This document shows, one piece after another, positions 4,197 through 62,220 of a stretch of DNA of 64,000 bases (within the stretch, counting starts at the first letter, position 1; each line of letters begins with the position of its first letter). The notes below the pieces were generated by a model. It did no database searches and was not told where the DNA came from. It saw only the letters and a program-made list of their open reading frames with translations. Both the position numbers and the translations under genes were made by a program. Source of the DNA: Thraustochytrium sp. TN22 (lineage: Eukaryota; Sar; Bigyra; Thraustochytrida; Thraustochytriidae); assembly GCA_013306675.1 (NCBI GenBank), contig JABLUY010000002.1, positions 434,001 through 498,000 on the forward strand, in the 5' to 3' direction.

Positions 4197-7100
4197 ATGG
4201 ATGCTTTGCGAGGGCAGCGTGCGCCGCGCGGCGCGCGGCCACGAGCGGCAGCCTGGGTTCTGGCCGTCACGGTCATCTCGACCATCTTAGGGGCGGCGTC
4301 AGTGACTGCAGCGGCCCGGCCCGTGCGCTTTGTGGACGGCCGTGAGACGCCGGTCTTCCCGGCCTGCTCGGCCGCGTACGCGACGCCATGCGCGTTCAAT
4401 AACGTGTACCGACTTGTGGAGGATCTCGCCGACGAGCTCCTCGTGTCGACCAACGTGACCGCCACTCTGGACGCCGTCGACGCTGGCGATCACAACGTTC
4501 TCGGTGGCTTTGGTTTCTCACCTCTCGTACTGCGCGCATCCGACTTGGTCTGCGTAGCGAGTGGTCGCGACACGAGCTTCAAGGGCCTCGGGATTCTCGG
4601 GATCATCAACTCGCTCGGCGTGGCGACCCCGCAAGACAGCCTTCCGCAAACGGTCCTCGAGGCCGCCTCGGAGGACGCCGACGGCTGGTTTGAGTTCGTC
4701 TTCACGTCGGAGCTGCACCCATTCGAGCCGGCGGCGCATCTCGGTTACGCGAAGCTTGTTCTGCCCCCGTCGGGGGACGGAACGGAGTACGTCGTGCTCG
4801 CAGCCCTCGGACTGCTCACGCTGCCACACATGCACGTGGACGCCTGCCCGGTACGCTACAATCGCCGCTGCAGCGTCCCAAACACGCGGTCTTTCCTCGG
4901 AGCCGCGCTTCAAAGAGCCATGAAGTCCACCTCTCAAGCACAGCTCAACCGTCTCTGGAGCGAGTTGACGTACTCGAGAGTCGACAGCGACCTGCGGGAC
5001 GGCGCATGGTACGTCTTCGCAATCGAGTACTTCAACGAGACCAACCACTCCATTGTTGCCCACTTCAACCCAGATTACGTTGGCCTCTCGCTCACCGAGC
5101 TCTCTAACATGGTCAACCCTGGTTCAGATGCCTCTCAGCTCCACAACGACCTCCTATCGCAGGTCCGCAAGGGCGGTGGCTGGTGGAAGTACGACTTCAA
5201 CGTTGGCGTGGACGCCCTGCTACCCAAGGTGACTTTTGCAGTGGGCTTCAACCGCTTTGGGTCCAACTACTACCTCGGCGCGGGCTTTTACCATATGCGC
5301 GATCCTGCGGCGGCGTCCGCACTTTGTGGCGTGTGCTCTGCAGCTTGCAGCGAGCCGTGCGCCATCGGAAATGCGCTCACCCTCAGCGCCCACGCCGAGG
5401 TTGAGATGCTCACAGACATCGGTGCGCAATTCGCCTTTCTGAAGCTGACGCAGGACGAGGATTTTGCCATGGCTGGCGGCTTTGGTGTCCTGCTTGTTGA
5501 CTATCTCGACCTCAGCGTCAAGGCGGACAGCGTCAGCCCGGCTGCGGTGAATGCCTCTCTCGCGCTGGCGCTTACCGCGCGTGGCATCGACGCCACCGAG
5601 GAGACCGTGGTGCACGCTACGCTCAGGGCCGTGGCGGATCGCGGCGGCGGCTGGGTGCGCTTGGCTGGAGAGGGTGGCGGCGCTGATTTCGCGGCTTACG
5701 TCAAGAAAGTCTCCAAAGAAGGCCATGAGTATTATCTGTTGACGGGCTACAACGAGCAACGCGCGCCTACGGACATCGCATGTTCGTCGGCATATTCAGC
5801 AGAGTGCTCCGAGGCAAACACCAGGGCCCTGGTAGGCGAGGTAGTCACAGCGCTGCAGCTCGCGAGCCATTCAGCGGACGTTCTCGAGGCGATCAACCGA
5901 GGGGACTTCGTCGTAATGCCAGATTTTGTCGGCATTGTCTTGGACGAGCAGCTCAACCTGGTCGCGCACGGCGATGCAGCAGCGCGCCTCGCCTGGAACA
6001 TGAGCGCAAGGGAGCCGTACTCGTCCTTTCTGCTACAGCACGAGCAGGTTACAAGCGTAGGCAACGAAGAGGTCGAGGCCATCCGCTCTGCAGCGCTGCA
6101 GGTCGGCGGCAGCGCGCTCCGTCTCGCGTGGAGTTCGCCGTCCGACAAAGTGGACCAGAGTGATCGAGTGATCTTCGCGCAGGTTGCGAAGCGTCCGCTT
6201 CCTACCGGCGCCGACGAGACCTTTTACGTCCTGTCCATGTTCGCCGATACGCCAGCCCGCCCGCTGTGCTCATCTGAATGCCCCGAGCACGCGTACTGCG
6301 TATCAAGCGATCAGTCAAGCAACCAAAACGTGTCGAATCGGTGCGCGTGCGGCTTCTATTACCAGGAGACTTACTCCGTCGAAACTCCCAGCGAGTGCGC
6401 GGGTTCTTTCGCGCATAGGATGACAATGTCTTGCATACCCGACACCAGCAAAGCCAGAATTCACAGTGTCAAGCGGCTCCTCAATGTGCTGGCCTGCCTC
6501 AACATCACCTTCGCGATGGCCTGCATTGCATGGACCATCCTTCTGCGCCGCGACGTGATCGTCAAGGCCTCACAACCCCCACTGCTGATTCTCGTGGCTG
6601 TTGGCACCATCGTGTCCTCCTGCACGCTCTTCTGGATGGCAATTGACGACGAGATCGGGCCTTCCGCCGGCCCGGACGGAGACAATGAACGGGCAAACCT
6701 TGCCTGCACAATGCAAGCTGTCTTGTACGGCCTGGGTTTTGCCATCACATACTGCTCTCTCATTGTCAAACTGCGGCGCATCACCCGAATCTTCAGGTCT
6801 GTCTCGCAGGTCTTCAAGCAGCAGCCACGTAGGTTACGCGGCGTGTCCATGCAGGGAACGCTTACCAGTTTATCCTTCCTCCTGAGCGGCGAGATTGCTA
6901 TACTCGTGTCAGGCGCGACGCTCGCTCCGCTCCGCTTTGTTCGACCAGACTCGGATCCAGCCAACGGCAAGTGTGTCGGAACAAATACCGGGCCCTTCGT
7001 TTCGCTCATGATCATCTACCACCTGGTCCTGCTCATCTTTGGGGCGTACCAAAGCTACTGCTGCCGCAAAGTCAACGGAGTCTTTGCAGAGACAAAGTAC

Positions 7101-7382
7101 TTTAGCCTGGCCATGGTGAGCAACCTGCAGGTACTGCTCCTAGCGCTTCCTGTCATCTTGCTCACGGCCGACGACATGGAGACATCCATGTTTATCCGCG
7201 GCGGCGCGATCTTCCTCAACGACTTTAGCACGACTGCGCTGATTTTCCTGCCCAAGGCATACTTCCGCCGGTACGGCGTTCCCGAGTCCTCGGGCAAGGG
7301 CGGAGACATCCTCGCGAAGCGGCAGCGGGAACAAGCTGCTACATCGGTCGACCAACACACCACGCGCGCCTCCTCACTCTAG
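4197..7382 (+). CDS. Receptor 1: four Cache-like modules, EGF-like knot, class C GPCR core
   Basis: The 1061-residue protein starts with a signal peptide (hydrophobic core VLAVTVISTILGAASV, about residues 20-40). Four modules of about 160 residues follow, each opening with a two-cysteine motif and a conserved Asn: CSAAYATPCAFNN (~56), CPVRYNRRCSVPN (~216), CSAACSEPCAIGN (~378) and CSSAYSAECSEAN (~528). Each ends in the sCache_2-like pattern GGGW...Y...GYYLxxGxY. A Cys-rich EGF-like knot (CPEHAYC to CACGFYY) lies at about 691-735. Seven helices span about 759-1020, with class C marks: VIVKASQP before TM2, a TM3 Cys, NGVFAETKY before TM6 and FLPKAYF at the end of TM7. Likely role: plasma-membrane or ciliary sensor of a small ligand signalling through G proteins. 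The ligand is unknown. Single exon; first of four tandem paralogs. The Cache call is by pattern only; the 7TM call is firm. Confidence 0.9.
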   Translation: MDALRGQRAPRGARPRAAAWVLAVTVISTILGAASVTAAARPVRFVDGRETPVFPACSAAYATPCAFNNVYRLVEDLADELLVSTNVTATLDAVDAGDHNVLGGFGFSPLVLRASDLVCVASGRDTSFKGLGILGIINSLGVATPQDSLPQTVLEAASEDADGWFEFVFTSELHPFEPAAHLGYAKLVLPPSGDGTEYVVLAALGLLTLPHMHVDACPVRYNRRCSVPNTRSFLGAALQRAMKSTSQAQLNRLWSELTYSRVDSDLRDGAWYVFAIEYFNETNHSIVAHFNPDYVGLSLTELSNMVNPGSDASQLHNDLLSQVRKGGGWWKYDFNVGVDALLPKVTFAVGFNRFGSNYYLGAGFYHMRDPAAASALCGVCSAACSEPCAIGNALTLSAHAEVEMLTDIGAQFAFLKLTQDEDFAMAGGFGVLLVDYLDLSVKADSVSPAAVNASLALALTARGIDATEETVVHATLRAVADRGGGWVRLAGEGGGADFAAYVKKVSKEGHEYYLLTGYNEQRAPTDIACSSAYSAECSEANTRALVGEVVTALQLASHSADVLEAINRGDFVVMPDFVGIVLDEQLNLVAHGDAAARLAWNMSAREPYSSFLLQHEQVTSVGNEEVEAIRSAALQVGGSALRLAWSSPSDKVDQSDRVIFAQVAKRPLPTGADETFYVLSMFADTPARPLCSSECPEHAYCVSSDQSSNQNVSNRCACGFYYQETYSVETPSECAGSFAHRMTMSCIPDTSKARIHSVKRLLNVLACLNITFAMACIAWTILLRRDVIVKASQPPLLILVAVGTIVSSCTLFWMAIDDEIGPSAGPDGDNERANLACTMQAVLYGLGFAITYCSLIVKLRRITRIFRSVSQVFKQQPRRLRGVSMQGTLTSLSFLLSGEIAILVSGATLAPLRFVRPDSDPANGKCVGTNTGPFVSLMIIYHLVLLIFGAYQSYCCRKVNGVFAETKYFSLAMVSNLQVLLLALPVILLTADDMETSMFIRGGAIFLNDFSTTALIFLPKAYFRRYGVPESSGKGGDILAKRQREQAATSVDQHTTRASSL

Positions 7383-8153
7383 AGCAACAGATACAACCAC
7401 TCCAGAAGCAGTTAAAATGGCCGAGATAGCTGAAGATGAGACGAGAGGAGGGAGAGACAAGCACGGAAATTGTATGCGGGCCGGAACGGCCATGTACCAC
7501 CACTGGGAGGCCAATTTGAAAGGCCACCCTACCTGTATAAGCGCTAATTTGCAGCAGGTAGTAAGTTATCACCCAATCAAATTTTTGACGCTCTGGAATT
7601 GACTTGCTTAGCTGGAGCGCACTGGCTAGCTAGGATAAGCTGGAAGGGGGCTCGCAACTCTTGTGGCACGGTGACGCGATGCCAGCCTCAAGCGGCCCGG
7701 ACGCCGGCCCAAACAACAAATCAGCGAGTTCCAACTGACAGCCCGGCCTTCCAGCTGCGTTCGCACCGGTAGCGCGGTCCGAGTGATGCCCTCGAGGCTT
7801 GCCGCCGATGTGAGGCCACAGGTCCGATGTCGAATTTCCCTTGACCGCCCCCCCCCCCCCCCTTGGACTAGGGCCTCCTAGGACTTCATGTTGGTCGTGG
7901 CCGTGGAGGCACAAGCCGATCTCCCGTTTCGAGAGGGCTGCTGGTGCTGCAATGGCGATGAGGGCGTTTCTCGCCGCTCGACTCGCATACACCACCAAGC
8001 GTTGTTCGAGTCAGACCTGGCCCCGTAACGGCTTCATTCCAACAATGGAGCCCCTGAATTGTGAATGAGTGCGAATGTGCACGGACGCAAACCGAGAGTG
8101 AGGTGAACTGCGCGGTCCTGCCTGGCCTGGCGCGGGCGCGGGCAACTGCTCCC
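7383..8153. other. Spacer between receptors 1 and 2
   Basis: No gene is supported in this 771-bp gap. It contains a run of 15 C at 7848-7862. An in-frame ATG at 8061 would add 31 residues to receptor 2, but the signal peptide fits the ATG at 8154 better. No promoter element shared with the other receptor genes was found by eye. Confidence 0.5.
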
Positions 8154-11100
8154 ATGGCGCTGCGCCCCATGGCCGACACGGCCGTGGCGGCCTTCGCGGC
8201 CCTCGCCGTGGTGAGCTCGTTGTGCACCATCGCAGAGGCGCAGCGGCCGCTGCGCTTCGTCGACTCGCTCGCCGCAGATGCGCTTACACCATATGCGGCC
8301 TGCTCCGCAGATTTCGCATCACCGTGCGCCTTCGGCCACGTCTATCGTCTCGTCGAGCGGCTTGTCGTGCAACTCGAGAGCGAGACGGACACAACCCAAC
8401 TTCTGGCCGCCGTGGACGCGCAGACTTACAATGCAGCAGATGGGTTCGGATTTGCACCCTTCGTGCTCGATCTTGACACCGATGGCGCTTGCGTCGCGAA
8501 CGGGCGCGATGCGAGCTTCAACGGCCTCTCCATGTTCGAGATCGCAAGAGATCGTCTGGGCGTCTTGACGCTCCAGGAGGCGCTGACAGAAGCTGTGGCC
8601 GAGGCGGCCGCGGCGAATCAACACGGATGGTTTCTCTTCTCGTTCACCTCCCAAGGGCGACCAGACGAGCCGATCGGGCATCTTGGCTACGCAAGCGCGG
8701 CCACAACGCCATCTGGGCGCCGCTTGGTTGTTCTCTCGAGTCTGGCGCGCCGACTCTTACCGCGCCAGGACGTCGAAGTGTGCCCCGCCGATGTGAACAG
8801 ACCGTGCACGATCCGCAACGCGCGGTCCTTCGTCGGTGCAGCGCTCATGTACGCCATCAGCGCCGCAAGCGAGGCTGACGTGCGCGAACTGTGGCGGAAG
8901 ATGACCTATCCTGAAGACAGCACCTTCCAAGATGGCTCCTGGTATGTTTTCGCGGAGGAGAAGTCGCCGAAGAATCACTTTGTGGCGCACCGGCAGCCCA
9001 ATTACATCAACACCAGCTTGAGCAGCATTCTCGAAAATGGGCCCCAAGTCGAAGACGACATAGCGGACGCTATTGCGCGTGGCGGAGGCTGGGTGGACTA
9101 TCAGTGGCAGCCTGACCTAGCCGTCACCGCGAAGCCCAAGGTGAGCTTCATCGTTGGCGTTCAGTTCGGAGACAGTCTCTTCTCCCTCGGCAGCGGCTTT
9201 TTCCACACACGTGACGCTGCGGAGGCTGCCGCCCTGTGTGCCGCATGTTCCGCGGCCTACAGTGAGCCGTGTGCTATAGGCAACGCTCTGGCTCTCAGCG
9301 CCCACGCCGAGGTCGAGCTGCTCACGGACATCACTGCGTACGACGCCTTCGACAGGCTCACGGCACAAGAAGACTTTGTCATTTCAGGTGGCTTTGGCGT
9401 CCTCCTCGTGGACTACGTGTCGGAGATAGTGCAAGCCGACAGCCTTGAACCTTCGGTCGTCAACGCCTCCCTCGCTGTCGCACTTTCTACTCGCGGCATT
9501 CGTGCCACAGAGGTCGACGCCGTGCACGCCACGCTCATGGCCGTGGCGGACCGCGGAGGCGGCTGGGCGCGTTTGGGCAGCGGGGACGGCGACGCTGACT
9601 TTGCGGCATACGTGAAGAAGATCTCCAGGCATGGCTCAGCATACTACCTGCTGACGGGCTACCACGACCGGCGCGCACCGACGGACCCCGCGTGCTCGTC
9701 GGCGTACGCAGCGGGCTGCTCAGAAGTGAACGCACGGGCCTTGGTCGGAGAGATTGTGACGGCGCTGCAGCTCGCCACAGACCCGGCCGACGTGCTGAAC
9801 GCCATCAACGACGGTGAAAACCAAACCTACGTCGTTTCGCCTGACTTCTATGGCATCGTGCTGGACGAGGAGCTGAACTTGCTGGCGTACGGCGACGCGG
9901 CGTCCCGCGGAACGTGGAACATGAGTGCCGTGCAGCCGTTCACATCCTTTCTGCAGCAGGAGCTGCTCATCACAAGTGTACGCGACAGCGACTTGCAGAC
10001 CAGGCTGCCTGCCGCGGCTCTCCACATCAGCGGCGGCACCATCCGGGTAGCTTGGCAGTCGCCGATCAGCTCCGTGGTGGACCAGGCCGACCGAATAATC
10101 TTTGCGCAGGCCGCCAAGCGACCCTTAGCAAACGGCGAGGAGACCACCTTTTATGTGCTGTCCATCTTTGCTGACGCGCCGGCGCCGCCACTGTGCTCAC
10201 AGGGCTGCCCGGAACATGCCTACTGCACGAGCGATCAAGAGGACGCAGACGGAGAGGCTCCGGTCCGCTGCGCGTGCGGCTTTTACTACCTGGAGAGCTT
10301 CGCCTCAGTGGAGTCGAGCGAATGCGACGCCTCATTTTCCAGAACGGACGTGATGTCGTGCGTGCTCGATGAGGACAAGGCGCACATCTGGCAGGTCAAG
10401 CTCATCCTCCGGGTTCTCGGGTCCACCAACATGGTTGTTGCCCTCGTCTGCGCGGTGTGGACCATGTACATGCGGAATCACGTCATTTTGAGGGCATCGC
10501 AGCCGTGGATTCTGGTCCTTGTGCCCGTCGGCGTGATGGTCTCCAGCCTCACCATCTTTGCCATGACCATCGACGATGAAGTGGGTCGTGCGGCCGGTCC
10601 AGACGGCGCCAACAACCGCGCCAATCTCGCCTGCGTTCTACAGCCCTTTTTCTATGGGGTTGGTTTCAGTGTTTCCTACAGTTCGCTCATCGTCAAGCTG
10701 CGCCGCGTAGTCAAGATCATCACCATGACGTACCGGAAGCGGAAGATGCATGATGTCTCTCTACTGGGCGCCTATGCAAATCTAGCGGGCCTCGTTTCTT
10801 TTGAGTGCATTCTCATCCTTTTGGGCGGCTCGTTCTCGCCTCTGCGCTTCACACGGCCCGAGGAGAATCCTATGGGCGGTACCTGCCGCGGTGAGAATTC
10901 CACCCCATTTCTCGTGCTTCTGGCCTCCTATCACCTCGCATTGCTCCTCTACGGTGCACATCTCAGCTATCGCTGCCGTTTGATGAATGGCGTCTTTGCG
11001 GAAACCAAGTATCTGAGCCTGGCCATGATGAGCAACCTGCAGATCCTCATGCTCGCCATTCCGGTCGTCGCGCTCACCGCTGACAACACTGACACCACGA

Positions 11101-11327
11101 CATTCATTCGCGGTGGCGCGGTCTTCCTCAACGACCTGGCCACCATGGCGCTCATCTTTCTTCCCAAGGTCTATTTCACCCTCTTTGGAGTGCCAGAAAA
11201 CTCCATGAACACCAGTCCCGGCGTGTTGGACAACATGTGGAAGGATTCCAAGGCATACTCGAGCAAAATCAGGCCCAACGGCTTCTTAGGTTCCAGCCGC
11301 ATGAGCGAGATTTCCGACGTTGGCTGA
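8154..11327 (+). CDS. Receptor 2: four Cache-like modules, EGF-like knot, class C GPCR core
   Basis: The protein has 1057 residues from the ATG at 8154, chosen because a signal peptide follows directly (TAVAAFAALAVVSSLCTIAE). Layout matches receptor 1. Module openings are CSADFASPCAFGH, CPADVNRPCTIRN, CSAAYSEPCAIGN and CSSAYAAGCSEVN. The EGF-like knot runs from CPEHAYC to CACGFYY, and the class C core begins at about residue 747. The helix 2 entry reads VILRASQP and TM7 ends FLPKVYF. Module 2 has the clear sCache_2 signature GGGWVDYQW ... KPKVSFIVG ... LGSGFF. The cytoplasmic tail of about 50 residues (Ser-rich, ending SEISDVG) differs from the other copies. It shares a Gly-Glu-Asn insertion in module 4 with receptor 4. 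Single exon; same strand as its neighbours. Confidence 0.9.
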   Translation: MALRPMADTAVAAFAALAVVSSLCTIAEAQRPLRFVDSLAADALTPYAACSADFASPCAFGHVYRLVERLVVQLESETDTTQLLAAVDAQTYNAADGFGFAPFVLDLDTDGACVANGRDASFNGLSMFEIARDRLGVLTLQEALTEAVAEAAAANQHGWFLFSFTSQGRPDEPIGHLGYASAATTPSGRRLVVLSSLARRLLPRQDVEVCPADVNRPCTIRNARSFVGAALMYAISAASEADVRELWRKMTYPEDSTFQDGSWYVFAEEKSPKNHFVAHRQPNYINTSLSSILENGPQVEDDIADAIARGGGWVDYQWQPDLAVTAKPKVSFIVGVQFGDSLFSLGSGFFHTRDAAEAAALCAACSAAYSEPCAIGNALALSAHAEVELLTDITAYDAFDRLTAQEDFVISGGFGVLLVDYVSEIVQADSLEPSVVNASLAVALSTRGIRATEVDAVHATLMAVADRGGGWARLGSGDGDADFAAYVKKISRHGSAYYLLTGYHDRRAPTDPACSSAYAAGCSEVNARALVGEIVTALQLATDPADVLNAINDGENQTYVVSPDFYGIVLDEELNLLAYGDAASRGTWNMSAVQPFTSFLQQELLITSVRDSDLQTRLPAAALHISGGTIRVAWQSPISSVVDQADRIIFAQAAKRPLANGEETTFYVLSIFADAPAPPLCSQGCPEHAYCTSDQEDADGEAPVRCACGFYYLESFASVESSECDASFSRTDVMSCVLDEDKAHIWQVKLILRVLGSTNMVVALVCAVWTMYMRNHVILRASQPWILVLVPVGVMVSSLTIFAMTIDDEVGRAAGPDGANNRANLACVLQPFFYGVGFSVSYSSLIVKLRRVVKIITMTYRKRKMHDVSLLGAYANLAGLVSFECILILLGGSFSPLRFTRPEENPMGGTCRGENSTPFLVLLASYHLALLLYGAHLSYRCRLMNGVFAETKYLSLAMMSNLQILMLAIPVVALTADNTDTTTFIRGGAVFLNDLATMALIFLPKVYFTLFGVPENSMNTSPGVLDNMWKDSKAYSSKIRPNGFLGSSRMSEISDVG

Positions 11328-12013
11328 GACGCAGAGGATCTGTTGTGAACCTATTGATCAACATCTGAATTTCAAATTTTCATTCCGCGCCGGCGCTCCT
11401 TCGTGACACTGCTGCTCAGGCGACGGTGAGCGTTCTCCCGTTGCTGCGGCGTGGAGGCGCGCGATACGCTTTCCGGCGGCTGGGCGAGGGCGGGGGGCGG
11501 ACTCGCGTTCAAGCTTTGTAGGTGGGACCACTGTGCGAGACAGGTTGCATCACAGTGCGATTGTCGGGCCCTACGTGGCTTGCTCAGCGCTTCGCGTGAC
11601 ACTGACGCCGCCGCACTGCAATGCCATGACGTGTGGCTACTATGGCATTCTCAGGATGCAGCATCACTACCTACCCTCCGATTCCAGTGCCGTTTGATGA
11701 TAAAATGGCTCGTGGCACGGTCCCTGACTCCCTGCACTGTGGCATGACACTGTGTGCCTCGTCACGCCTCGAGCGAGTGGAACGGACCGCAACGGAACCC
11801 TTGGAAGCCAGCAAGCTAGCCCGGTGCGATCAGCCAGACGATCAGTTCTGTCACCATTATCGTGAGGCGCCGCGAGGCGCGCGCGCGCGCGCGCGTCGCA
11901 CGACGCGAGCGTGCGCTTCCGCTTGCTCTTGCCTGTGAACGGAGCCAGCGCGCGTGCCTTTCGCCACGCTTCGCTGTGCGACGCGGTGCGGTGCGGTCAA
12001 TGCGCCAGCCGTG
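11328..12013. other. Spacer between receptors 2 and 3
   Basis: No gene is supported in this 686-bp gap. It contains an alternating GC run of 19 bp at 11877-11895 that could adopt Z-DNA, about 120 bp before the receptor 3 start. An upstream in-frame ATG at 11954 would lengthen receptor 3 by 20 residues. Confidence 0.5.
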
Positions 12014-15000
12014 ATGATGCAGGCAGCGAAGTCATGCTTACTGCTGTGGACTACGCTCTTGTTGAGTGCGCTGTACATGGACAAGGCGCAGGCGCAGCGC
12101 CCGAGACGCTTCGTGGACTCGCTCTCCGACGACGCGATCACGCCCTTTCCGGGCTGCTCTGCAGATTTTGCCACGCCCTGCTCGTTCAACCACGTCTATC
12201 GCGTCGTCGAGAGGCTCAGCCTAGTGCTCGAGACGAATGCGGATACCGAAGCCGTTCTCGCAGCAGTGGACGCCCAGGCGCACAACGCGGCGGACAGCAT
12301 TGGCTTCATTCCCTTCGTGCTGGATTTGGACAATGGAGGCATTTGCGCGGCGAACGGCCGCGATGTGAACTACAATGGGCTCTCGCTCTACGAGATCGCC
12401 CAGGTCAAGCTTGGTGTCCCCATGTTGCAAGAGAGCCTCACAGAGATTATCGTTGTAGCTAGTGCCTCGAACCAGCACGGGTGGTTCAAATTCGCCTTCA
12501 CGTCCTTTGGCCGGCCGGAGGAGCCCATCGGACACCAGGGCTATGCGCGCGAGGTCCTCACGCCAGGTGGGCGCCACCTCGTGGTGGTTGCGAGCTTCGC
12601 TCGACGACTGTTGCCTCGCATGGACGTCACCCATTGCCCGGCCTCCGTGAACAGGCAGTGCACGATCCGCAACACGCGCTCCTTCGTTGGTGCGGCGCTC
12701 ATGCATGCGATGGACGCTGCCGACCTCGCGGATTTGCGCAAAGTATGGACTGACATTACCTACAATGCCCTGAACGGTGACGACACCTTCACTGCAGGGG
12801 CATGGTACGTCTTCGTGGACCAGGTGCAGCCCTATGTGCACAACGTGGCACACCCTAGGCCGCACCTGATCAATTCAAGCGTCTTTGACATTCTTCCCGA
12901 CGGCGGAGCCCAGGATGAGTTTGACATTGCGTTCGCTCAAGGAGGGGGCTGGGCAAGCTATCAGTGGCAGGTGAACCCGGCTGTCCCGGTCGAGCCCAAG
13001 ATCACGTATGTGGTCGGCTTTGAGTTCGACTCGACGCCTTTCTACATTGGGGTCGGCTTTTTCCACAACCGCGATCCTGCCATGACGGCAGCCCTGTGCG
13101 CGTCTTGCTCTGAGGCGTACAGTGAACCGTGCGCGATCGGAAATTCGCTCTCCCTGAGCGCTCACGCGGAGGTTGAGATGCTCACGAATATCCAAGCGCA
13201 CGTCGCCTTCGCTAAACTCACCGAACACGAGGACTTTGTCATGCCGGGCGGCTTTGGCGTGCTTCTCGTCGACTATTTCGACAGTACTGTCAGGGCCGAC
13301 AGCCTCTATCCTTTGGCGGTCAACGCCTCGCTCTCAGCCGCGCTTCTCGCGCGACAAATTAGCGCCGCGGACGAGGCCGCGGTGCACTCCATGCTCGTGG
13401 CCAAGGCGAGCGGCGGCGGAGGCTGGACGCGACTACCTGGCGAGAACGACGGAGATGAATTTGCCGGCTTCGTGCGGGAGGTTGCAAAGTACGGGAGGCA
13501 GTATTATTTGCTGACAGGCTACCGTGTGCGGCGCGCGCCGACGGACCCATTTTGCTCCTCGGCGTTTTCAGCGCCATGCTCCGAGGTCAATGCCCGAGCC
13601 GTAGTGGGCGAGATCGCGACGGCCCTGCAGCTGGCTGACGATCCGACAAGCGTCCTCCAAAGCGTCAACGCAGGCGGGTTTGCTGTCTCTGACTTCTCTG
13701 GCATCGTTCTGGACCAGGACTTTGGCCTCCTCGCGTACGGCGATGCAACAAGCAGGGGCACGTGGAACATGAGCCTCGTTCAGCCCTTCCTGAGCTTTCT
13801 GCATCATCAACTGCTCGTGACAAACGTGGGCCAGCCCGAGCTCGAACTCCTGCAGGCAGCCGCCCTCAGCGTCGGAGGCGACTACCTCCGAATCTCTTGG
13901 CACGAGATGCAAGGCGCTCCCAGAAGTACCTCAGACAGCAAATCTGGCAGGCCGAGCGCACGAATGGGCTTTGCGCTGGCGGCGAAGCGCGAGACGCCGT
14001 CTGGCGAAGACGAGACGTACTACGTGCTGTCTCTCTTCGTCGACGCCCCGGCGCCGCCCCTGTGCTCCTCGGGTTGTCCCGAAAACGCCCATTGCACCGG
14101 GGATCGCTGTTTGTGCGGCTTCTACTACCAGCCTGTCTTCACGCTCGTGGGCCCGGCCGAGACTTGTCAAGATGCGGCCACGCGCGCGACGACAATGTTG
14201 TGTGAGCTGGACATGGACCGCGCCGGAGGGCGGAAAATCAAGCGACTCCTGAATGCCCTTGCGACCATCAATATCACTTTCGCGCTCATTTGCGTTGCAT
14301 GGACCTTCATTATGCGACGCGATGTGATCGTGAAGGCCTCTCAGCCAGCACTCCTTGTGCTGGTCGGCGTTGGCACAATCGTCTCCTCCACGACGCTGTA
14401 TGCCATGGGTGTCGATGATGAGATCGGACCACAAGCTGGGCCCACAGGAGCGAATGGGCGGGCAAATTTCGCCTGCAAAATGCAACCAATCCTCTATGGA
14501 CTTGGCTTCGCAATCACCTATTGCTCGCTCATTGTCAAGCTGCGACGAATTGACACGATATTCTCGCAGGCGTCGGAGAAAGGTGCAGGTCGCAAGGTCT
14601 CTACGCGCGACACATTTGTGACGCTCGGCCTTCTTCTCTCGGTCGAAGTCATCATCATGAGTATCGGAGAGACCCTCTCGCCGTTCTCCTTCGTGCGAGC
14701 GGCAGAGGATCCCCTCAACGGGGGATGCCGCTCGGAAACGTCCACACCTTTCCTTGTCCTCCTAGGTTCCTATCATTTGGCGCTGCTCCTGTACGGTGCG
14801 TACATCAGCTATCGCTGCCGCAAGGTGAACGGTGTCTTCGCTGAGAGCAAGTACCTCAGCCTTGCCATGGTTGGCAATCTTCAAGTGCTGCTTCTCGCGG
14901 TCCCTGTCATCCTGCTGACAGCTTCGGACGCCTCGACCTCTGTGTTCATCCGCGGCAGTGCCATCTTCCTTAATGACTTTGGCACCACTGCGCTGATCTT

Positions 15001-15262
15001 CATACCCAAGGTCTACTTTACCATCTTTGGCCCGCCCGAATCGTCCGGCGCCGAGGCCTTTCTGCTCCAGCAGAAGTGGCAGGGCACTCGAAAGGGGTCT
15101 CGCATGCTCAGCGACCGCCCCTTGTCTACACGCGCCAGCTCTCAGTGCCTGCAGAGCAGCAAGGGATTTGCAACTGTCCCTGCGGTGAAGGTGCTTGACT
15201 TCAAGACAATCGTTTCCAGTGGCGGTACACTGCAGGCTGACAGGGACGGTGCAGGAGAATAA
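12014..15262 (+). CDS. Receptor 3: four Cache-like modules, EGF-like knot, class C GPCR core
   Basis: The protein has 1082 residues from the ATG at 12014, the one directly before a signal peptide (SCLLLWTTLLLSALYMDKAQ). Module openings are CSADFATPCSFNH, CPASVNRQCTIRN, CSEAYSEPCAIGN and CSSAFSAPCSEVN. The EGF-like knot is the shortest of the four (CPENAHC to CLCGFYY). The class C core carries VIVKASQP, NGVFAESKY and FIPKVYF. Its N-terminal module is closest to receptor 2, whereas the helix 1-2 region is closest to receptor 1, a sign of recombination within the array. The cytoplasmic tail is the longest (about 80 residues) and begins with the PPESSG motif shared with receptor 4. Single exon. 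Confidence 0.9.
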   Translation: MMQAAKSCLLLWTTLLLSALYMDKAQAQRPRRFVDSLSDDAITPFPGCSADFATPCSFNHVYRVVERLSLVLETNADTEAVLAAVDAQAHNAADSIGFIPFVLDLDNGGICAANGRDVNYNGLSLYEIAQVKLGVPMLQESLTEIIVVASASNQHGWFKFAFTSFGRPEEPIGHQGYAREVLTPGGRHLVVVASFARRLLPRMDVTHCPASVNRQCTIRNTRSFVGAALMHAMDAADLADLRKVWTDITYNALNGDDTFTAGAWYVFVDQVQPYVHNVAHPRPHLINSSVFDILPDGGAQDEFDIAFAQGGGWASYQWQVNPAVPVEPKITYVVGFEFDSTPFYIGVGFFHNRDPAMTAALCASCSEAYSEPCAIGNSLSLSAHAEVEMLTNIQAHVAFAKLTEHEDFVMPGGFGVLLVDYFDSTVRADSLYPLAVNASLSAALLARQISAADEAAVHSMLVAKASGGGGWTRLPGENDGDEFAGFVREVAKYGRQYYLLTGYRVRRAPTDPFCSSAFSAPCSEVNARAVVGEIATALQLADDPTSVLQSVNAGGFAVSDFSGIVLDQDFGLLAYGDATSRGTWNMSLVQPFLSFLHHQLLVTNVGQPELELLQAAALSVGGDYLRISWHEMQGAPRSTSDSKSGRPSARMGFALAAKRETPSGEDETYYVLSLFVDAPAPPLCSSGCPENAHCTGDRCLCGFYYQPVFTLVGPAETCQDAATRATTMLCELDMDRAGGRKIKRLLNALATINITFALICVAWTFIMRRDVIVKASQPALLVLVGVGTIVSSTTLYAMGVDDEIGPQAGPTGANGRANFACKMQPILYGLGFAITYCSLIVKLRRIDTIFSQASEKGAGRKVSTRDTFVTLGLLLSVEVIIMSIGETLSPFSFVRAAEDPLNGGCRSETSTPFLVLLGSYHLALLLYGAYISYRCRKVNGVFAESKYLSLAMVGNLQVLLLAVPVILLTASDASTSVFIRGSAIFLNDFGTTALIFIPKVYFTIFGPPESSGAEAFLLQQKWQGTRKGSRMLSDRPLSTRASSQCLQSSKGFATVPAVKVLDFKTIVSSGGTLQADRDGAGE

Positions 15263-17308
15263 CGAGCAGCCGGTGACATAGCCTCTACATGTACTTTAAT
15301 CAAGACGAAAGGTGTCTCTGCTTGCTGCGTTGAGCTGCGATGGGCTGACTGCAAGCACCGCAGCGTTCCTTTAGGGCCAGCCTTGCTTGCGCAGAGAGCC
15401 CTTGTTGCGCAGACTGCCTCAAGGCAAGCGATTCGAACTCGAAAGGGTGGGCGGAGCTCGCTCATGTGGACGGTGGCGTTCACGCACAGTCGCAGTCTGA
15501 AGGGCACTGGTGTGTCGTTCCGCGGCTAGAGGCTGTGGCGGAGGTGCAGCATCGTGGCTTGTCTGCGGCAGAGCGAGCAGACTCGACAGCGCTCGGAGGG
15601 CTGCAAGGAGGGCGGCTGTGGGCGGATGAGAACAACGGGAATTAGTTTCTCGGCCAACGAACTGGGCGCTCACCCGTCAAAGTCGGTTGGCATTTAATTT
15701 AGCTTTCCTTCCTTTTTTTGGCGCCCGCGACCTCCCTGCCTGCCGGCGTGCTCGACCTCTCTGCTAAATTATGACTCACACTCAGGGCCGCCTCTTTTCC
15801 CCTTTCTCAAACACGACCGTCTGATGATAGCCTCGCGCTAATCCGCGCTCGGACCGCGCTCGACCGCGCTCCGACCGACCGTGCTCCACCCGCCTGGCAG
15901 ACGAACCTGAGCCTGTAGCGCACTCACTCACTCATGTCATGTCAGTCGCTGAGCCACGATTTCACCTTGTCTTCAAGTCAAGTCCCATCGCCGCCACGGG
16001 CGAGAAACGGGTCGTGGGTGCTGTCGTTTCGCGCGGTCCCGCTCGGCGCAGGACCGCCGCTCTGTGCGACGACCCGCGCAAGTTCGCTCGGCGTGGACCA
16101 AGTAAAGTGGCCGGCCAAGCCGCCGTTTTCCAGCTTCGACGACGGGTTCATGCCGGCGATGCGAAATTCACCCTCACTGGGAAGAAGTTCCGCCGGGCCG
16201 ACTCGAACGCCCCTGTCCGTGCCAACGAGTCTTTCCTTGAAGATACCGTTGCGCGCAGTCACGGTCACTGTCCGTGACTCATGGATGCGGGCATCACCTA
16301 GCAGTAAGTTCGCCGGCGAACAGCGATAGCCGCGTTCACAGTGACTGCGTCAAGGGGAGGGGGAAAAGAAAGAGTGCCGCGCCTCGGCCGAGGCTCGGCC
16401 GCGGCGCACGGCACGACCTCCGCTCCCGGCGCTGCGCTGCCGGAGTTGGAAGGCGGGCAGACGAAGCAACCCTGCCCCGGCTGCCCGTTCACCAAGCCTC
16501 TGGGCCTCGTGGGTACCTGGGTACCGGGCACCACCTGGATGTACGCAGCCCTGGCGCCGGTGGCGCCATGGGCGTCTACAGCAAGTCGAGTAGCTTTTCG
16601 CGATGCAGTGCTGGCCGTCGCACACGTCAGCCCAACCCACCGGAGCGGCGGCGGCGGCGGCGGCGCAGTCTAGTGGCGCTCGATCGCTCGATCGCTGGCT
16701 GGAAGTTCTCGCAAAAAGCAGCGGCCGCCTGTTCGCGGGCCATGGCGCGGAGACCGGGCGCGGAGACCGCCCGCACCGCGAATTATCGTCCTACGAGGAC
16801 CCGACAGTTGTACTTGGCAAGAAGCGGTTCGGCGAGCCTCCAGCTTGGGTCGGGCGAACCAGTGCGCCTCCAGCACGGCACGAGCGATCGAGCCTCGCGT
16901 CGCCAAGACACCGCGTCGCAGACCAATAGCAAGAAGCTCAACCTCGAGTTAGACGAAGCGGTAACGGACGCCCTGCGGCGCGCTTGAGCTTTGCTAGCTC
17001 GCGAGCTTGCCTACTAGCGACCAGAAGAGATGCGATGTCTGGTCTACAGACGACATGGCCGAAGCGCAGGCGCACAGTTTGAGCAGGCGCACAGTTTGAG
17101 CCGCTCCGCGAGCCTGCGCTGGACAGTCTCGCCAGAAGGTCCCGAAACGGCTCATCACATGCAAGAGGACTCGGAGCCACGCCACAGCATTTCGGGAGAG
17201 CCGAGCAGCTCTCCATCAAGACTTTGGAGGGAGCGCGTTTTTCCGGCTCGCCAGAACCCTCTGGAGAGAGCATTGGCGGCATCTCTCGGGTCTTGGGCAG
17301 ACGCGCGC
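15263..17308. other. Two-kilobase spacer before receptor 4
   Basis: This is the longest gap in the receptor cluster. Frames here are Arg/Ser/Pro-rich and unrecognised, and I found no remnant of a fifth receptor by eye. A 17-bp motif (AGGCGCACAGTTTGAGC) occurs twice in tandem at about 17067-17100. An open frame runs into receptor 4 from 17030, but its first 93 residues lack any signal sequence and look like translated leader. Confidence 0.5.
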
Positions 17309-20300
17309 ATGCTCACACGTAGTCGCCTGAGGATGGTTCAGGTGTCGCGCGGCCTGCAGCTCCTGGCTGTCGTGGTTGCCCTCCTGGGCATTCTGCCCTC
17401 GGCCGCAGGCTCTCGTCCAGTGCGCTTCTTCGACGGCGGCGAGACGCCGGTCTTCCCGGCGTGTTCGGCTAGCTACGCGACACCCTGCGCCTTCAATAAT
17501 GTCTACCGCACTGTGGAGACGCTCAGCGCAACGATTGAGGCAACGACAGCGGCGGACATGAACGCTTTGCTGGCGAGTACGACAGCGAAAACCTACAACG
17601 TGCAAGACGGCTTTTACTTCGCGCCCTTCGTTCTTGATTCAAGCTCACAGACCATACTTGCCAACGGGCGCTCCAGTGACCTGAATGGCATGACCATGGA
17701 GGCTGCGGCCGTGGAGATCGGCGCGCTGAGCAACCAGGATGGCCTCAGCACAGAGATCGCGGCCGCTGCGGACGCGAGCGCCGACGGCTGGTTTCGCTTC
17801 GTCTTCATCTCGGAGGACTACCCGGGTGAGCCGCGCACCTTCATCGGCTACGCTCGGACGGCCAGCGACGCAGACAGCGCCGCGGACTATATCGTGCTCT
17901 GCGCACTCGCGCATCGCTCGCTGAGCCGGATGGACATTGACGCGTGCCCGACCAGCCTGAACCGCCGCTGCAACATCCGCAACGTGCGCAGCATTGTCGG
18001 CAACGTCTTGTCCGCTGCAATGCTTGCTAGTAACGAGGCCGAGCTTCGCGATGTTTGGTCGGCGGTAACCTACCCAGTGGACACATCCTTTCGTGATGGC
18101 AGCTGGTACACCTTTGTCTTCGCCATGGATGAGGCCCCGGAGGACCGCAACTGCTACGGCCACACACGCAGTGACTGGATTGGCATGACCTTGCACGAGA
18201 TCTCGGAAACCTTCGTCTCGGTGGAGCAGCAAAATGGCACGACGCTGCACTTCAACTTCGTCGACGCCGCCGTGGCAGGCGGTGGCTGGGCTCGCTACAG
18301 CTGGAAAGCCAATCCCGATATTCCGGCCCAGGAGAAGGTCAGCTACGTCACCGGGGTCCGCAGGTTCGGCAAAGACTACTTTTTCGGCGTGGGCTTCAAC
18401 CACATCCGCGATGACCCGGAGGAGAGCGCACTGTGCTCTACATGCACCGCCGCGAGCAGCGCGCCCTGCGCGATCGGCAATGCACTTTCACTCAGCGCTC
18501 ATGCAGAGGTTGAGCTTCTGACAGACATCGCCGCGGAGATCGTCTTCCCGCGCCTCACGTCGCGGGACGATTTCCAAATGGAGGGCGGCTTTGGCATACT
18601 TCTGGTGGATTACGCAGATCTCATGGTCAAAGCGGACAGTGTGTTGACCACCACTGTCGGCAACACCCTGGGAACGGCGCTCGGAGCGCGCCACATTCTT
18701 GCCACCTCGGAAAACACGATACACGAGTTGCTCAAGGACAAGGCCGACCATGGCGGCGGCTGGATCCGCCTGCCCGGGGCGGAAGGCTACGCGGACTATG
18801 CCGCCTTCGTCAACAAGATCTCAAAGTATGATCAGGAGTACTACCTGGTCAATGGCTATCGGGCAGAACGCGCGGCCAGTGTCGCGGCGTGTTCTGCCGA
18901 GTACTCTGCGCCCTGCTCGGAAACCAACGCCGAGGCGCTCATTGGCGACATCGTGACGGCCATCCAGCTCGCCGATGACATCCAGGACGTGCTCGACGAT
19001 ATCAACCAAGGTGAGAACTCGAGTCTCTTCATCCAGCCCAACTTTTACGGCATCGTCCTTGACCAGAACTTCAACCTCCTCGCCTTGGGTGATGTGGAGG
19101 CGCGCAGCACGTGGAACATCTCGACGCCAGAGCCTTACACGCAATTTGTACAGCAGGTGCAGGGCGTATCGACGCTGGGCAATGAGTTCACTGAAGACCT
19201 CCGTCTCGCCGCGCTCGGGGTGGGTGGCGGCTCCCTCAAACTCATTTGGAATAGTGCGCAGGGTGCCAACGAGGATCGCATCGTATATGCGCAGTCCGCC
19301 AAGCGCATCTCGGAGAACGGCGACGACCTCACCTACTACGTGATGACCATGTTCACGGACGCCCCGGCCCCACCTCTCTGCGCAGACGGCTGTCCCGAGA
19401 ACTCCTTCTGCATCGCCACCGATGATGGCCTGCCAGACCGCTGCACGTGCGGCTTCTACTACGAGGCGATCTTCACAGACGACGATGATGCGAACACGTG
19501 TGCGACGACGGAGACACGCGCCAAAGTGATGACGTGCGGTGTCGACGCGGCCAAGTCACACATCCAGAGTGTCAAAGGCATCTCCTATGCGCTCGGGAGC
19601 ATCAACTGCATCTTTGCCGCTGCTTGCATCGTCTGGACACTCATCATGCGTCGCCACATGATTGTGCGAGCTTCGCAGCCGCAGCTCCTCGTGCTCGTCG
19701 GCGTTGGCACCATCGTCTCCTCTGTCACCATCTTCATTATGGCCATCGACGACGATGTCGGCCCGCCGGCTGGTGACGGAATCAACGAGCGCGCTAACTG
19801 GGCCTGCATGGTACAGCCCTGGTTTTATGGTGTCGGCTTCGCCATCACGTACTGCTCCATGATTGTCAAGCTGCGTCGCGTCGCCAAGGTTTTTCGTAGC
19901 GCTGCGAACCTCAAGAAGGCCAAGGGCGTCTCCCTCAAGGTGACCATGGCGTGGCTCGTGGTTCTCGTCTCAATTGAGCTCTTCGTCCTGGCCATCTGGA
20001 CCATCAGCGACCCGCTCATCTTTGTGCGCCCGGAAGACTCGCCGCTGAATGGGTCCTGCCAGTCGGCCTCCTCGCGCAACTTCATCACCATCGTTGCCCT
20101 CTACCACCTCAGCCTCCTAATCTACGGCGCCTTTCTCAGCTACAAGCTGCGCAAGATGAACGGTGTCTTCGCGGAGACCAAGTATCTCAGTCTTGCCATG
20201 CTTGGCAACCTGCAGGTGCTCCTCCTCGCGCTGCCCGTCATTGTGCTCACCGCCGACGACGCCGAGACCTCCATGTTCATTCGCAGCATCGCCATCTTCC

Positions 20301-20506
20301 TTAACGACTTCTCCACGACCGCCCTCATCTTCGGCCCCAAGGTCTTCTTTAGCATCTTCGGCCCGCCCGAATCCAGTGGTGCCGGTGGCAGTGTCCTGTC
20401 CAAAAAGAGCGGCGGCAAGTACGCCGCCAACGGCAGTGTTGTCCCGACCTCCATGACCGGCGTTACCTCTGTGGCTCACTCGACGCCCGGCGCGTCTGGC
20501 GGCTGA
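17309..20506 (+). CDS. Receptor 4: four Cache-like modules, EGF-like knot, class C GPCR core
   Basis: The protein has 1065 residues from the ATG at 17309, preceding a signal peptide (GLQLLAVVVALLGILPSAAG). Module openings are CSASYATPCAFNN, CPTSLNRRCNIRN, CTAASSAPCAIGN and CSAEYSAPCSETN. The EGF-like knot runs from CPENSFC to CTCGFYY. The class C core carries MIVRASQP, NGVFAETKY and FGPKVFF; the last is closest to the FxPKxY motif of animal class C receptors. The first module resembles receptor 1 (shared ETPVFPACSA), while the segment after TM7 resembles receptor 3 (FGPPESSG). Last of the array, with IFT140 starting 489 bp downstream on the same strand. Single exon. Ligand and G-protein partner are unknown. 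Confidence 0.9.
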   Translation: MLTRSRLRMVQVSRGLQLLAVVVALLGILPSAAGSRPVRFFDGGETPVFPACSASYATPCAFNNVYRTVETLSATIEATTAADMNALLASTTAKTYNVQDGFYFAPFVLDSSSQTILANGRSSDLNGMTMEAAAVEIGALSNQDGLSTEIAAAADASADGWFRFVFISEDYPGEPRTFIGYARTASDADSAADYIVLCALAHRSLSRMDIDACPTSLNRRCNIRNVRSIVGNVLSAAMLASNEAELRDVWSAVTYPVDTSFRDGSWYTFVFAMDEAPEDRNCYGHTRSDWIGMTLHEISETFVSVEQQNGTTLHFNFVDAAVAGGGWARYSWKANPDIPAQEKVSYVTGVRRFGKDYFFGVGFNHIRDDPEESALCSTCTAASSAPCAIGNALSLSAHAEVELLTDIAAEIVFPRLTSRDDFQMEGGFGILLVDYADLMVKADSVLTTTVGNTLGTALGARHILATSENTIHELLKDKADHGGGWIRLPGAEGYADYAAFVNKISKYDQEYYLVNGYRAERAASVAACSAEYSAPCSETNAEALIGDIVTAIQLADDIQDVLDDINQGENSSLFIQPNFYGIVLDQNFNLLALGDVEARSTWNISTPEPYTQFVQQVQGVSTLGNEFTEDLRLAALGVGGGSLKLIWNSAQGANEDRIVYAQSAKRISENGDDLTYYVMTMFTDAPAPPLCADGCPENSFCIATDDGLPDRCTCGFYYEAIFTDDDDANTCATTETRAKVMTCGVDAAKSHIQSVKGISYALGSINCIFAAACIVWTLIMRRHMIVRASQPQLLVLVGVGTIVSSVTIFIMAIDDDVGPPAGDGINERANWACMVQPWFYGVGFAITYCSMIVKLRRVAKVFRSAANLKKAKGVSLKVTMAWLVVLVSIELFVLAIWTISDPLIFVRPEDSPLNGSCQSASSRNFITIVALYHLSLLIYGAFLSYKLRKMNGVFAETKYLSLAMLGNLQVLLLALPVIVLTADDAETSMFIRSIAIFLNDFSTTALIFGPKVFFSIFGPPESSGAGGSVLSKKSGGKYAANGSVVPTSMTGVTSVAHSTPGASGG

Positions 20507-49821: not shown

Positions 49822-51123
49822 TCACGCATACGCGTTACAGGACTCTAGCGGTCGCGTCCACTGCGCCGCGTAGAGCCGCTTGGCGGCCTCGTAGATGCGA
49901 ATGTCGTCGGCGAGGCGGGTGCGCAGATCTGCCATGAGCGCTGCGTCCTGCAACTGCGCCTGAATGCGCACGCCATAAGTGGCAGCATTCGCAGTTTTTC
50001 GCGTTTCGCGCAGGTGGCGCAAGGCGTCGCCGAAGGCCGGGCCAAGCTCCGTCTCGAGGCGAGACAGGCCGTCCTGCAGGTCCTCGAGCAGGAGAAAGCG
50101 CACGCACGGATGCGCGAGGTTATGCACCGCTGCCTCAACGCCACAGCCCGTGTCACAGCCGCGCGTGAGGCGCCAGAGGAGAAACTGTGGCTCGCCAAGG
50201 CCTGACTCGAAGAAAGCGCCAAGGTCGAGCGGGCACTCGCCGGCCTTACGCCAGGCCGGCAACCACTTCTTGCGATTCTCCGCGCCTTCAATACATACGT
50301 AATTGTAGTTGCTCACAGCGCGCGCCACCGGGTCGCGTAGAACCACCAGGTAGATGCAGGGCCGGCCGGGCAGGTGGTCGCATAGGCCCATGGTCATGCT
50401 GCCCCAGAGCGCGCGCAGCGGGCATTCACTGGCGCTGTTCTCAGCCTCGAAAGGCACGCGTGGCTCCTGGACCGTGGCGCCGCAGCGCACGTACAATGGC
50501 TCCGAGCCCTCGCCCCAGCCCCGCTGCACGGGCGAGCGTTGTTGCAGTGCCCGGCGCAGCGACCGTGGCGGGGATGGTCTCGGCGTGGCCCACGGCCGCC
50601 CGAGCCCGCGCCAGCCTCGAAAGGCACCTAGACCGGCGCCGTCCCACCCACGCGCCTCCAGCGTGGGGAAGATGACGTCCTTCTTAATGGTCGATCCGCC
50701 AGCCTTGTTGACATGGATGAAGGCCAGCACGAGGCGGTCCCTGATGGTTGCTTCGTCCAGCACCAAGCCTCGCTGGCTGTGGCCCGTCGCGCTGGGCAGC
50801 CAGTAGGTGACCGAGTTTGCGCCCGGCCCCAGGTCTCTGCAGTTGCAGCGCCGGATATCTGCTCGGCGCTCCGGAGCATAGCACGGGTCCTGCTCGATGG
50901 TCCCGATGCGGCGCGTCTGCGCGCACTGGCCAGCGGGCTCCGGCGTCACGGCATCCAGCTCGAGCGGCACCCCGTCCATGGCGACGTCCAGGCTTCCAGC
51001 CCCTACGCGGCTGGACCAGCGCAGCGCGACGACCACGAGAGCGCCGCACAGCGCCGCCCATGCCCATCGAGGGCCTGGCCGCCGCCGTGGCGGCTGGTGC
51101 GCCGGCGGTGGCGGCTGGTCCAT
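49822..51123 (-). CDS. Golgi-type carbohydrate sulfotransferase (Sulfotransfer_2 family)
   Basis: The 433-residue protein has type II membrane topology, with a short basic cytosolic tail and one helix at about residues 18-37 (WAWAALCGALVVVAL). The two PAPS-binding signatures are visible: 5'-phosphosulfate loop FIHVNKAGGSTIKKD at about 135 and 3'-phosphate motif VVLRDPVARAVSNYNYV at about 258. This pattern is that of heparan-sulfate 2-O/6-O and related carbohydrate sulfotransferases, which transfer sulfate from PAPS to glycans in the Golgi lumen. The acceptor cannot be told from sequence. A Gly/Pro/Arg-rich insert (about 165-205) separates the two motifs and may be a variable loop. Single exon; tail to tail with PWP1. 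Confidence 0.85.
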   Translation of the reverse strand: MDQPPPPAHQPPRRRPGPRWAWAALCGALVVVALRWSSRVGAGSLDVAMDGVPLELDAVTPEPAGQCAQTRRIGTIEQDPCYAPERRADIRRCNCRDLGPGANSVTYWLPSATGHSQRGLVLDEATIRDRLVLAFIHVNKAGGSTIKKDVIFPTLEARGWDGAGLGAFRGWRGLGRPWATPRPSPPRSLRRALQQRSPVQRGWGEGSEPLYVRCGATVQEPRVPFEAENSASECPLRALWGSMTMGLCDHLPGRPCIYLVVLRDPVARAVSNYNYVCIEGAENRKKWLPAWRKAGECPLDLGAFFESGLGEPQFLLWRLTRGCDTGCGVEAAVHNLAHPCVRFLLLEDLQDGLSRLETELGPAFGDALRHLRETRKTANAATYGVRIQAQLQDAALMADLRTRLADDIRIYEAAKRLYAAQWTRPLESCNAYA

Positions 51124-56583: not shown

Positions 56584-56618
<35 letters not shown>

Positions 56619-62209: not shown

Positions 62210-62220
62210 GCTCGTCGCGG

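Follow-up and report, generated by a model that had tools for sequence, protein, structure and literature searches.

Tandem class C receptor genes with putative Cache-type ectodomains of four modules in Thraustochytrium sp. TN22

What does a G protein-coupled receptor (GPCR) sense when its extracellular part is built from four related modules? The question is raised by 64,000 nucleotides of Thraustochytrium sp. TN22 (GenBank assembly GCA_013306675.1, contig JABLUY010000002.1, positions 434,001 to 498,000 of the forward strand), hereafter called the window, in which four class C receptor genes follow one another between positions 4197 and 20506. An original prediction, made from the sequence alone, read each ectodomain as a stack of four Cache-like sensor modules offering four potential binding pockets. 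We consider it probable, on balance, that the genes encode a tandem family of chemosensory class C GPCRs with a stack of Cache modules, in which the second module would bind carboxylates and the other three have diverged. The parts of this reading that were computed are the class of the seven-transmembrane (7TM) bundle, the kinship of the modules, the Cache fold of module 2, and the residue set conserved in it.

The receptor genes and their membrane bundle

The four genes are tandem open reading frames of the + strand, all without an intron (1061, 1088, 1102, and 1158 amino acids in the window's list of open reading frames), and their products share 47–56% pairwise identity across more than 1000 residues. 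Internal ATGs are the likely starts of genes 2–4, and the outer limits of the predicted cluster, 4197 and 20506, hold. The signal peptide foreseen for each protein corresponds to a hydrophobic leader after the ATG in all four genes, recognized by hydropathy only.

4197..7382, + strand: receptor gene 1; 1061 amino acids, ATG start, intronless; 7tm_3 E 1.5e-30
8154..11327, + strand: receptor gene 2; reading frame open from 8061 (GTG), 8154 being the first ATG before the hydrophobic leader; 7tm_3 E 2.4e-28
12014..15262, + strand: receptor gene 3; reading frame open from 11954 (GTG), ATG at 12014; 7tm_3 E 5.5e-34
17333..20506, + strand: receptor gene 4; earlier ATGs at 17030, 17159, and 17309, with 17333 directly preceding the leader; 7tm_3 E 8.4e-38

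The Pfam family 7tm_3 (PF00003) lies above its cut-off in all four proteins (99.9–130.9 bits versus 33.5; E 2.4e-28 to 8.4e-38), with the profile match spanning the full bundle, which bears out the claim of four class C receptor genes at this locus. A Kyte–Doolittle hydropathy scan counted exactly seven helices in none of the four genes and marked weak segments also inside the modules of genes 1 and 2. The short motifs that had been taken as class C marks are present, but with variants: KASQP in genes 1 and 3 becomes RASQP in genes 2 and 4, ETKY occurs in three genes and ESKY in gene 3, and FxPKxY occurs in three genes and FGPKVF in gene 4. Positions that class C receptors are described as conserving or requiring include loop cysteines, a Lys or Arg at the end of transmembrane helix 3, an acidic residue at the end of helix 6, and a PK pair in helix 7 (PMC3727952). 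By our own assignment to that list, their counterparts are Cys837/Cys926, Lys858/Arg860, Glu965, and Pro1019-Lys1020 of gene 1, all invariant in the four receptors.

6252..6476, + strand: gene 1 cysteine-rich linker; six conserved cysteines with a spacing like that of epidermal growth factor (EGF) domains, no Pfam EGF family above cut-off
6477..7265, + strand: gene 1 class C 7TM bundle (PF00003)
10395..11168, + strand: gene 2 class C 7TM bundle (PF00003)
14249..15010, + strand: gene 3 class C 7TM bundle (PF00003)
19586..20341, + strand: gene 4 class C 7TM bundle (PF00003)

The linker has the pattern C-x3-C-x5-C-x(4-14)-C-x-C-x(15-16)-C in all four receptors. The EGF-like knot of the original prediction survives in this six-cysteine spacing but not as a family match, as no linker reaches the cut-off of a Pfam EGF family (0/4) and the sole match of EGF type is EGF_MSP1_1 in gene 4, with an E-value of 0.81. 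The linker may thus be called EGF-like by its cysteine spacing only.

Searched against solved structures, a profile of linker and 7TM bundle from the four sequences is led by GABA-B1 (85 bits) and GABA-B2 (75), followed by mGlu7 (56) and CaSR (41), and GPR158 and GPR179 are not among the best 60 of its 76 matches. Gene 1 searched alone gives near ties (GABA-B2, 29.9 bits; GPR179, 28.2; mGlu2, 28.2). By these scores the bundle leans towards GABA-B, which falls short of a placement. By profile, GABA-B has the closest 7TM among solved structures; its ectodomain, however, is a Venus flytrap (ANF) (PMC12716839), none of which was detected here by Pfam at E ≤ 1 or among the best 50 of the 1376 fold matches of module 2.

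Four related modules and their likeness to Cache domains

Each ectodomain consists of four modules of 152–171 residues.

4329..4817, + strand: gene 1 module 1; Cache-like, without the carboxylate set; score 33.2 against bacterial sCache_2 (shuffle maximum 21.5)
4818..5306, + strand: gene 1 module 2; sCache_2-like, with Tyr272, His289, Tyr332, and Lys344; module-2 profile E 2.7e-15
5307..5762, + strand: gene 1 module 3; kin to the other modules, no direct link to bacterial Cache
5763..6251, + strand: gene 1 module 4; Cache-like, with Arg at the Lys position
8256..10178, + strand: gene 2 ectodomain; modules start at 8256, 8754, 9219, and 9675
8754..9218, + strand: gene 2 module 2; AlphaFold model with Cache fold; sCache_2 E 2.3e-4, 21.6 bits against a cut-off of 25
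12110..14047, + strand: gene 3 ectodomain; modules start at 12110, 12608, 13079, and 13535
17426..19363, + strand: gene 4 ectodomain; modules start at 17426, 17918, 18416, and 18872

That these are four related modules of some 160 residues is confirmed by profile comparison. All six module pairs score above every one of 60 column shuffles (hhalign 28–60 versus shuffle maxima of 17–22), 7TM control segments reach 9–19 in the same test, and the weakest pair, modules 2 and 4, scores 27.8 over only 37 columns. A tree of the 16 modules contains one group per module position (support 98/99, 99/99, 92/90, and 97/96); since modules cluster by position, the four-module layout predates the gene duplications. 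The same tree sets modules 1 and 4 against modules 2 and 3 with weak support (76/78), a hint of a nested order of module duplication.

The motifs said to open and close every module are shared in part. A C-x7-C pair stands invariant at the opening of all 16 modules, just before the long helix, but the Asn that was to accompany it occurs in 14 of 16, with His instead in module 1 of genes 2 and 3. The C-x7-C pair could possibly form a disulphide cap; it is absent from the two bacterial sCache_2 proteins inspected. At the closing end, GGGW is complete in modules 2 and 3 (4/4 each), reduced to GW in module 1 (4/4), and without its W in module 4 (0/4).

Cache domains are set apart from PAS domains by a long N-terminal helix, and sCache_2 is found mostly in bacterial signalling proteins (Upadhyay et al., PMC4822843). 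Our bacterial reference comprised 13 sCache_2 domains from plasmid records, all 13 over the Pfam cut-off; ten were picked for spread from 42 listed rows, and the first two were top matches of the module 2 tblastn search itself. That search, run against 7.3 Gb of plasmids at E ≤ 10, returned one record for gene 3 (best E 3) and seven for gene 2 (best 0.4), none significant. The top match for both genes is a Cache or chemotaxis protein, and the eight records include two Cache/chemotaxis proteins, one overlapping a Cache protein match, one annotated otherwise, and four without useful annotation.

Aligned with the 13 bacterial domains, the module 2 profile scores 96 over 87 columns, with none of 60 shuffles as high (maximum 23.5) and an E-value of 2.7e-15 that, like all our hhalign E-values, refers to one single comparison. 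Modules 1 and 4 match weakly (score 33, shuffle maximum 21.5, E 1.3e-4, probability 54%; and score 31, shuffle maximum 20.5, E 3.6e-4, probability 37%), in both cases with 0/60 shuffles as high, and a joint profile of modules 1, 3, and 4 scores 39 (shuffle maximum 16.8, E 1.4e-5). The 7TM control stays within the null (score 15, shuffle maximum 17.7, 8/60 as high).

A structural model of gene 2 module 2, built from an alignment of the window's own 16 modules, reached a mean predicted local distance difference test score (pLDDT) of 77.7. Its elements follow the order helix, helix, two strands, two helices, three strands, giving the long N-terminal helix and PAS-like sheet. Foldseek matched this model to 18 Protein Data Bank (PDB) chains at E ≤ 0.001, nine of them Cache and nine PAS/LOV; the Cache chains come from three proteins, with 4k08 (Adeh_3718) on top, then 5g4y (PscD-type) and seven chains of TlpB. 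A Venus flytrap ectodomain is rejected, as no ANF or periplasmic-binding family appears at E ≤ 1 and none stands among the best 50 of the 1376 fold matches of module 2, so that the choice of Cache over Venus flytrap is upheld. Pairing of the modules into dCache_2 units was discarded likewise, the weak PF08269 matches on module 2 falling on differing halves of that profile.

Thus, the Cache-like nature predicted for all modules holds to different degrees: with high confidence, module 2 is sCache_2-like; modules 1 and 4 are likely Cache domains; and module 3, which has no direct match, would be one only through its kinship to modules 1, 2, and 4.

A putative carboxylate pocket in module 2 and the readings it allows

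In the bacterial sensor PscD, the carboxylate of propionate is held by hydrogen bonds from Tyr90, His103, Tyr143, and Lys156; three of these, Tyr90, His103, and Lys156, are called critical, with high conservation across single Cache domains (PMC5062169). We located these positions indirectly, on the bacterial rows, by a spacing of 13 from Tyr to His and of 13 from Tyr to Lys, both kept in the Aliivibrio row. At the mapped columns, Tyr, His, Tyr, and Lys occur in 13, 11, 11, and 13 of the 13 bacterial rows, respectively, and the whole set is present in module 2 of all four receptors. The position of PscD Trp92 is Phe in module 2 (4/4), and that of Trp145 is Trp except in gene 1, which has Phe.

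In modules 1, 3, and 4, the full set is found in 0 of 12 cases. Module 1 reads Phe/Gly/Phe/His or Phe at the four columns; module 3 reads gap/Ser/Leu/Phe or Tyr; and module 4 reads Gly/Ala or Val/Leu, Val, or Ile/Arg, the Arg at the Lys position being invariant (4/4). Module 4 of gene 1 has a His three columns off, aligned by hhalign with the bacterial His; in genes 2–4 this column holds Tyr or Leu. Four equal pockets are rejected on the count of complete sets, and of the four potential binding pockets first proposed, the carboxylate set supports the one in module 2. The best reading of the residues would be one canonical small-carboxylate pocket with three diverged modules, not four equivalent pockets. 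Among the four genes, 36 of 155 module-2 positions are invariant, including all four pocket residues; their retention appears notable, though the four genes are related and the count is an informal one. Module 2 is also the most variable module between paralogues (mean identity 42.5%, against 49–59% for the others). Since this most divergent module keeps its four carboxylate-holding residues fixed, the receptors probably do not all prefer the same carboxylate.

Beyond the computed parts, we infer the ligand, the dimer, the coupling to a G protein, the chemosensory role, and the flagellated host. The host would be an intron-poor protist, flagellated because IFT140 is among the neighbouring genes, with a tandem family of four chemosensory receptors, each with four Cache modules stacked outside the cell, a linker of six cysteines below them, and a GABA-B-like 7TM bundle in the membrane. 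Module 2 would be the ligand-binding module with a retained bacterial sCache_2 pocket, its ligand most likely a small carboxylate of the size of acetate, propionate, pyruvate, or glycolate. Modules 1, 3, and 4, as diverged Cache copies, would more likely serve as spacers, as dimer contacts, or as binders of something else. Ligand binding may shift the Cache stack within a receptor dimer, and the cysteine-rich linker would pass this shift to the pair of 7TM bundles, which, by analogy to class C receptors, would signal to a heterotrimeric G protein.

Several results weigh against this reading. The sCache_2 (PF17200) cut-off of 25 bits is reached by none of the 16 separate modules (best 21.6 bits; 3/16 match at E ≤ 1). 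Module 3 shows nothing beyond chance against bacterial sCache_2 (score 18.6, shuffle maximum 19.7, E 0.036, 1/60 as high). The profile match of module 2 covers the sheet half only and not the N-terminal helix, and its E-value is that of a single comparison. Its 18 fold matches at E ≤ 0.001 are modest (template modelling score 0.41–0.49 by query length), half of them being PAS/LOV. The full-length receptor model is unusable (mean pLDDT 40, predicted template modelling score 0.29). As to ligand, the PscD study cautions that conserved pocket residues do not set the ligand range, and TlpB has the Tyr in common yet binds urea (PMC5062169). Searches for relatives in IMG/VR and the genome_contigs set gave 48, 64, 102, and 73 pattern matches with 0 confirmed. 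Finally, synonymous sites are near saturation (proportion of synonymous differences, pS, 0.58–0.77), so that selection is poorly measurable.

A Pfam scan of the whole proteins at E ≤ 1 placed sCache_2 on module 2 of three genes (2, 3, and 4), always under its cut-off (best 20.7 bits versus 25), and gene 1 had no such match. Profile searches of the PDB gave weak matches only (E 0.06 or worse), including sCache structures (4exo, 2qhk, and 4k08) as well as unrelated chains such as CD82 and parvalbumin, and module 2 of gene 3 as a single sequence had no PDB match at E ≤ 10. In the full-length model, to which we give no weight, the order of secondary structure roughly repeats per module, module 3 has one strand versus two, and seven long helices lie at the C-terminus. 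A Foldseek search with this low-confidence model, to be taken as a hint only, returned mostly PAS proteins and also 4k08, 5g4y, GABA-B, and GPR179 (8irj).

How do these receptors compare with known systems? Bacterial sCache_2 proteins (PscD, McpP, Adeh_3718/4k08) resemble module 2 in fold, in the order GGG-[WF]..Y..K, and in the four carboxylate-holding residues; unlike the present modules, which stand four in series on a 7TM bundle and each open with C-x7-C, theirs occur singly, as extracytoplasmic domains of chemoreceptors and kinases. Among animal receptors, mGlyR/GPR158 and GPR179 are described as class C 7TM proteins with an extracellular Cache domain followed by a region of EGF type (PMC12716839; PMC10921406). 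The likeness lies in Cache above a linker, EGF-like there and of EGF-like cysteine spacing here, and a class C 7TM, with no Venus flytrap (PMC12716839, PMC10921406); the difference lies in one glycine-binding Cache there, whereas here there are four modules, a sCache_2-like module 2 with the carboxylate set, and a 7TM profile nearer to GABA-B. Among protists, TP_7830 of Thalassiosira pseudonana is reported as a 7tm_3 protein with Cache_1 (PMC3251606), and the legend of Figure 4 in PMC3727952 has a Cache 1 box among diatom GPCRs. TP_7830 shares with our genes a class C 7TM and a Cache domain in a protist but, compared by its description alone, has Cache_1 only as reported, with no four-module stack described (PMC3251606). 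According to a 2025 survey, Cache occurs in no non-metazoan GPCR among the groups examined for ectodomains; the survey's ectodomain taxa, as listed, are without stramenopiles, though stramenopile 7TMs entered its clustering (PMC12716839). The original prediction knew of no described family with this layout. In the open-licence literature, we found neither four Cache modules with a cysteine knot and 7TM nor any multi-Cache 7TM receptor, but mGlyR/GPR158/GPR179, the Thalassiosira Cache_1 protein, and the alpha2delta subunit of voltage-gated calcium channels are partial precedents.

The reading of one carboxylate-binding module in a Cache stack can be carried further, if only tentatively. In a protist lineage, the mGlyR plan may have arisen independently: a carboxylate-sensing sCache_2 domain of bacterial type would have been fused to a GABA-B-like 7TM and multiplied to four, and the gene would have expanded in tandem into metabolite receptors with differing carboxylate preferences, possibly with more than one ligand per receptor; taken as a whole, we hold this to be possible and on the doubtful side. 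Together with the diatom Cache_1 report, these genes indicate Cache–7TM fusions outside animals, in richer form. A link between a bacterial chemotaxis sensor of known ligand chemistry and a eukaryotic G-protein receptor would make small carboxylates a directly testable ligand class. If the main reading is right, this protist would have natural GPCRs for metabolites, and they would serve as a scaffold on which to study how a class C bundle is driven by binding to Cache. This matter is described as unsettled even for mGlyR, where glycine binding in the Cache domain is reported to alter a complex with a regulator of G-protein signalling and no glycine-bound structure is said to exist (PMC12834959).

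Less probable still is that each of the four modules binds a ligand of its own, so that a single receptor would sum several chemical inputs or gate them. None of the four modules has been lost from any receptor, the proportion of nonsynonymous differences (pN) is below pS in every segment and every gene pair, and module 3, the least variable, is as conserved as the 7TM bundle (59.0% versus 58.7% mean identity among paralogues). Module 4 could hold an acid group with its invariant Arg, but neither it nor modules 1 and 3 have the carboxylate set in any receptor. The alpha2delta subunit, which is not known to have a 7TM bundle, offers a comparison that also speaks against several ligands. It resembles the present ectodomains in carrying four Cache domains in one extracellular chain, although these are arranged as two dCache_1 pairs, and one universal amino-acid pocket is named for the four (PMC9901441).

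It is unlikely that these genes are protist orthologues of metazoan mGlyR/GPR158 that sense glycine or a related amino acid. The order of parts is equal, namely Cache, EGF-like or cysteine-rich linker, and class C 7TM (PMC12716839); with gene 1 as sole query GPR179 nearly equals GABA-B2 (28.2 versus 29.9 bits), and the GPR179 chain 8irj is on the Foldseek list of the low-confidence full-length model. The four-sequence profile is nevertheless led by GABA-B at 85 bits, with GPR158 and GPR179 outside its best 60 of 76 matches, the Cache type is sCache_2-like with the carboxylate set, and there are four modules, not one. Equally improbable is an adhesion, mating, or partner-binding ectodomain with the module 2 pocket as a relic. 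Four modules would make a long stalk and the variability of module 2 is expected too of recognition surfaces, but that variation spares the four carboxylate residues (invariant 4/4, when only 36/155 module-2 positions are).

The surrounding locus

A fifth receptor copy was not found in the window by tblastn with all four receptors (E ≤ 1e-3), and a fifth receptor or remnant in the gap at 15.3–17.3 kb is ruled out by the absence of tblastn matches there at the same threshold. The G+C content runs between 58 and 73% in 2-kb steps across the 64 kb, and a scan for transfer RNA genes found 0 in the window. We take IPR000337, IPR002455, and IPR017978 to be class C domains. These three are named among the GPCR domains enriched in thraustochytrids (PMC6050695).

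The neighbouring genes encode a Pelota/eRF1-like protein, IFT140, a FolD-type enzyme, midasin, a serine carboxypeptidase, and a WD40 protein. Thraustochytrid genes are intron-poor. In the window, the midasin-like AAA protein (29709–47204, − strand) is one unbroken frame of 5831 amino acids with a VWA match near its C-terminus, and IFT140 is one frame of 1743 amino acids; single frames of this length point to a piece of eukaryotic DNA with hardly any introns.

The − strand also contains the following three frames. One of 1041 amino acids (59126–62248) has 0 Pfam families over cut-off and a sub-threshold polycystin-channel match (E 0.11). Another, of 442 amino acids (49825–51150), has an N-terminal hydrophobic segment by eye and a sub-threshold match to Sulfotransfer_2 (E 0.015). 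The third, of 1048 amino acids (53873–57016), contains two WD40 blocks at about residues 8–116 and 435–571, the best propeller profile being Beta-prop_EML_2.

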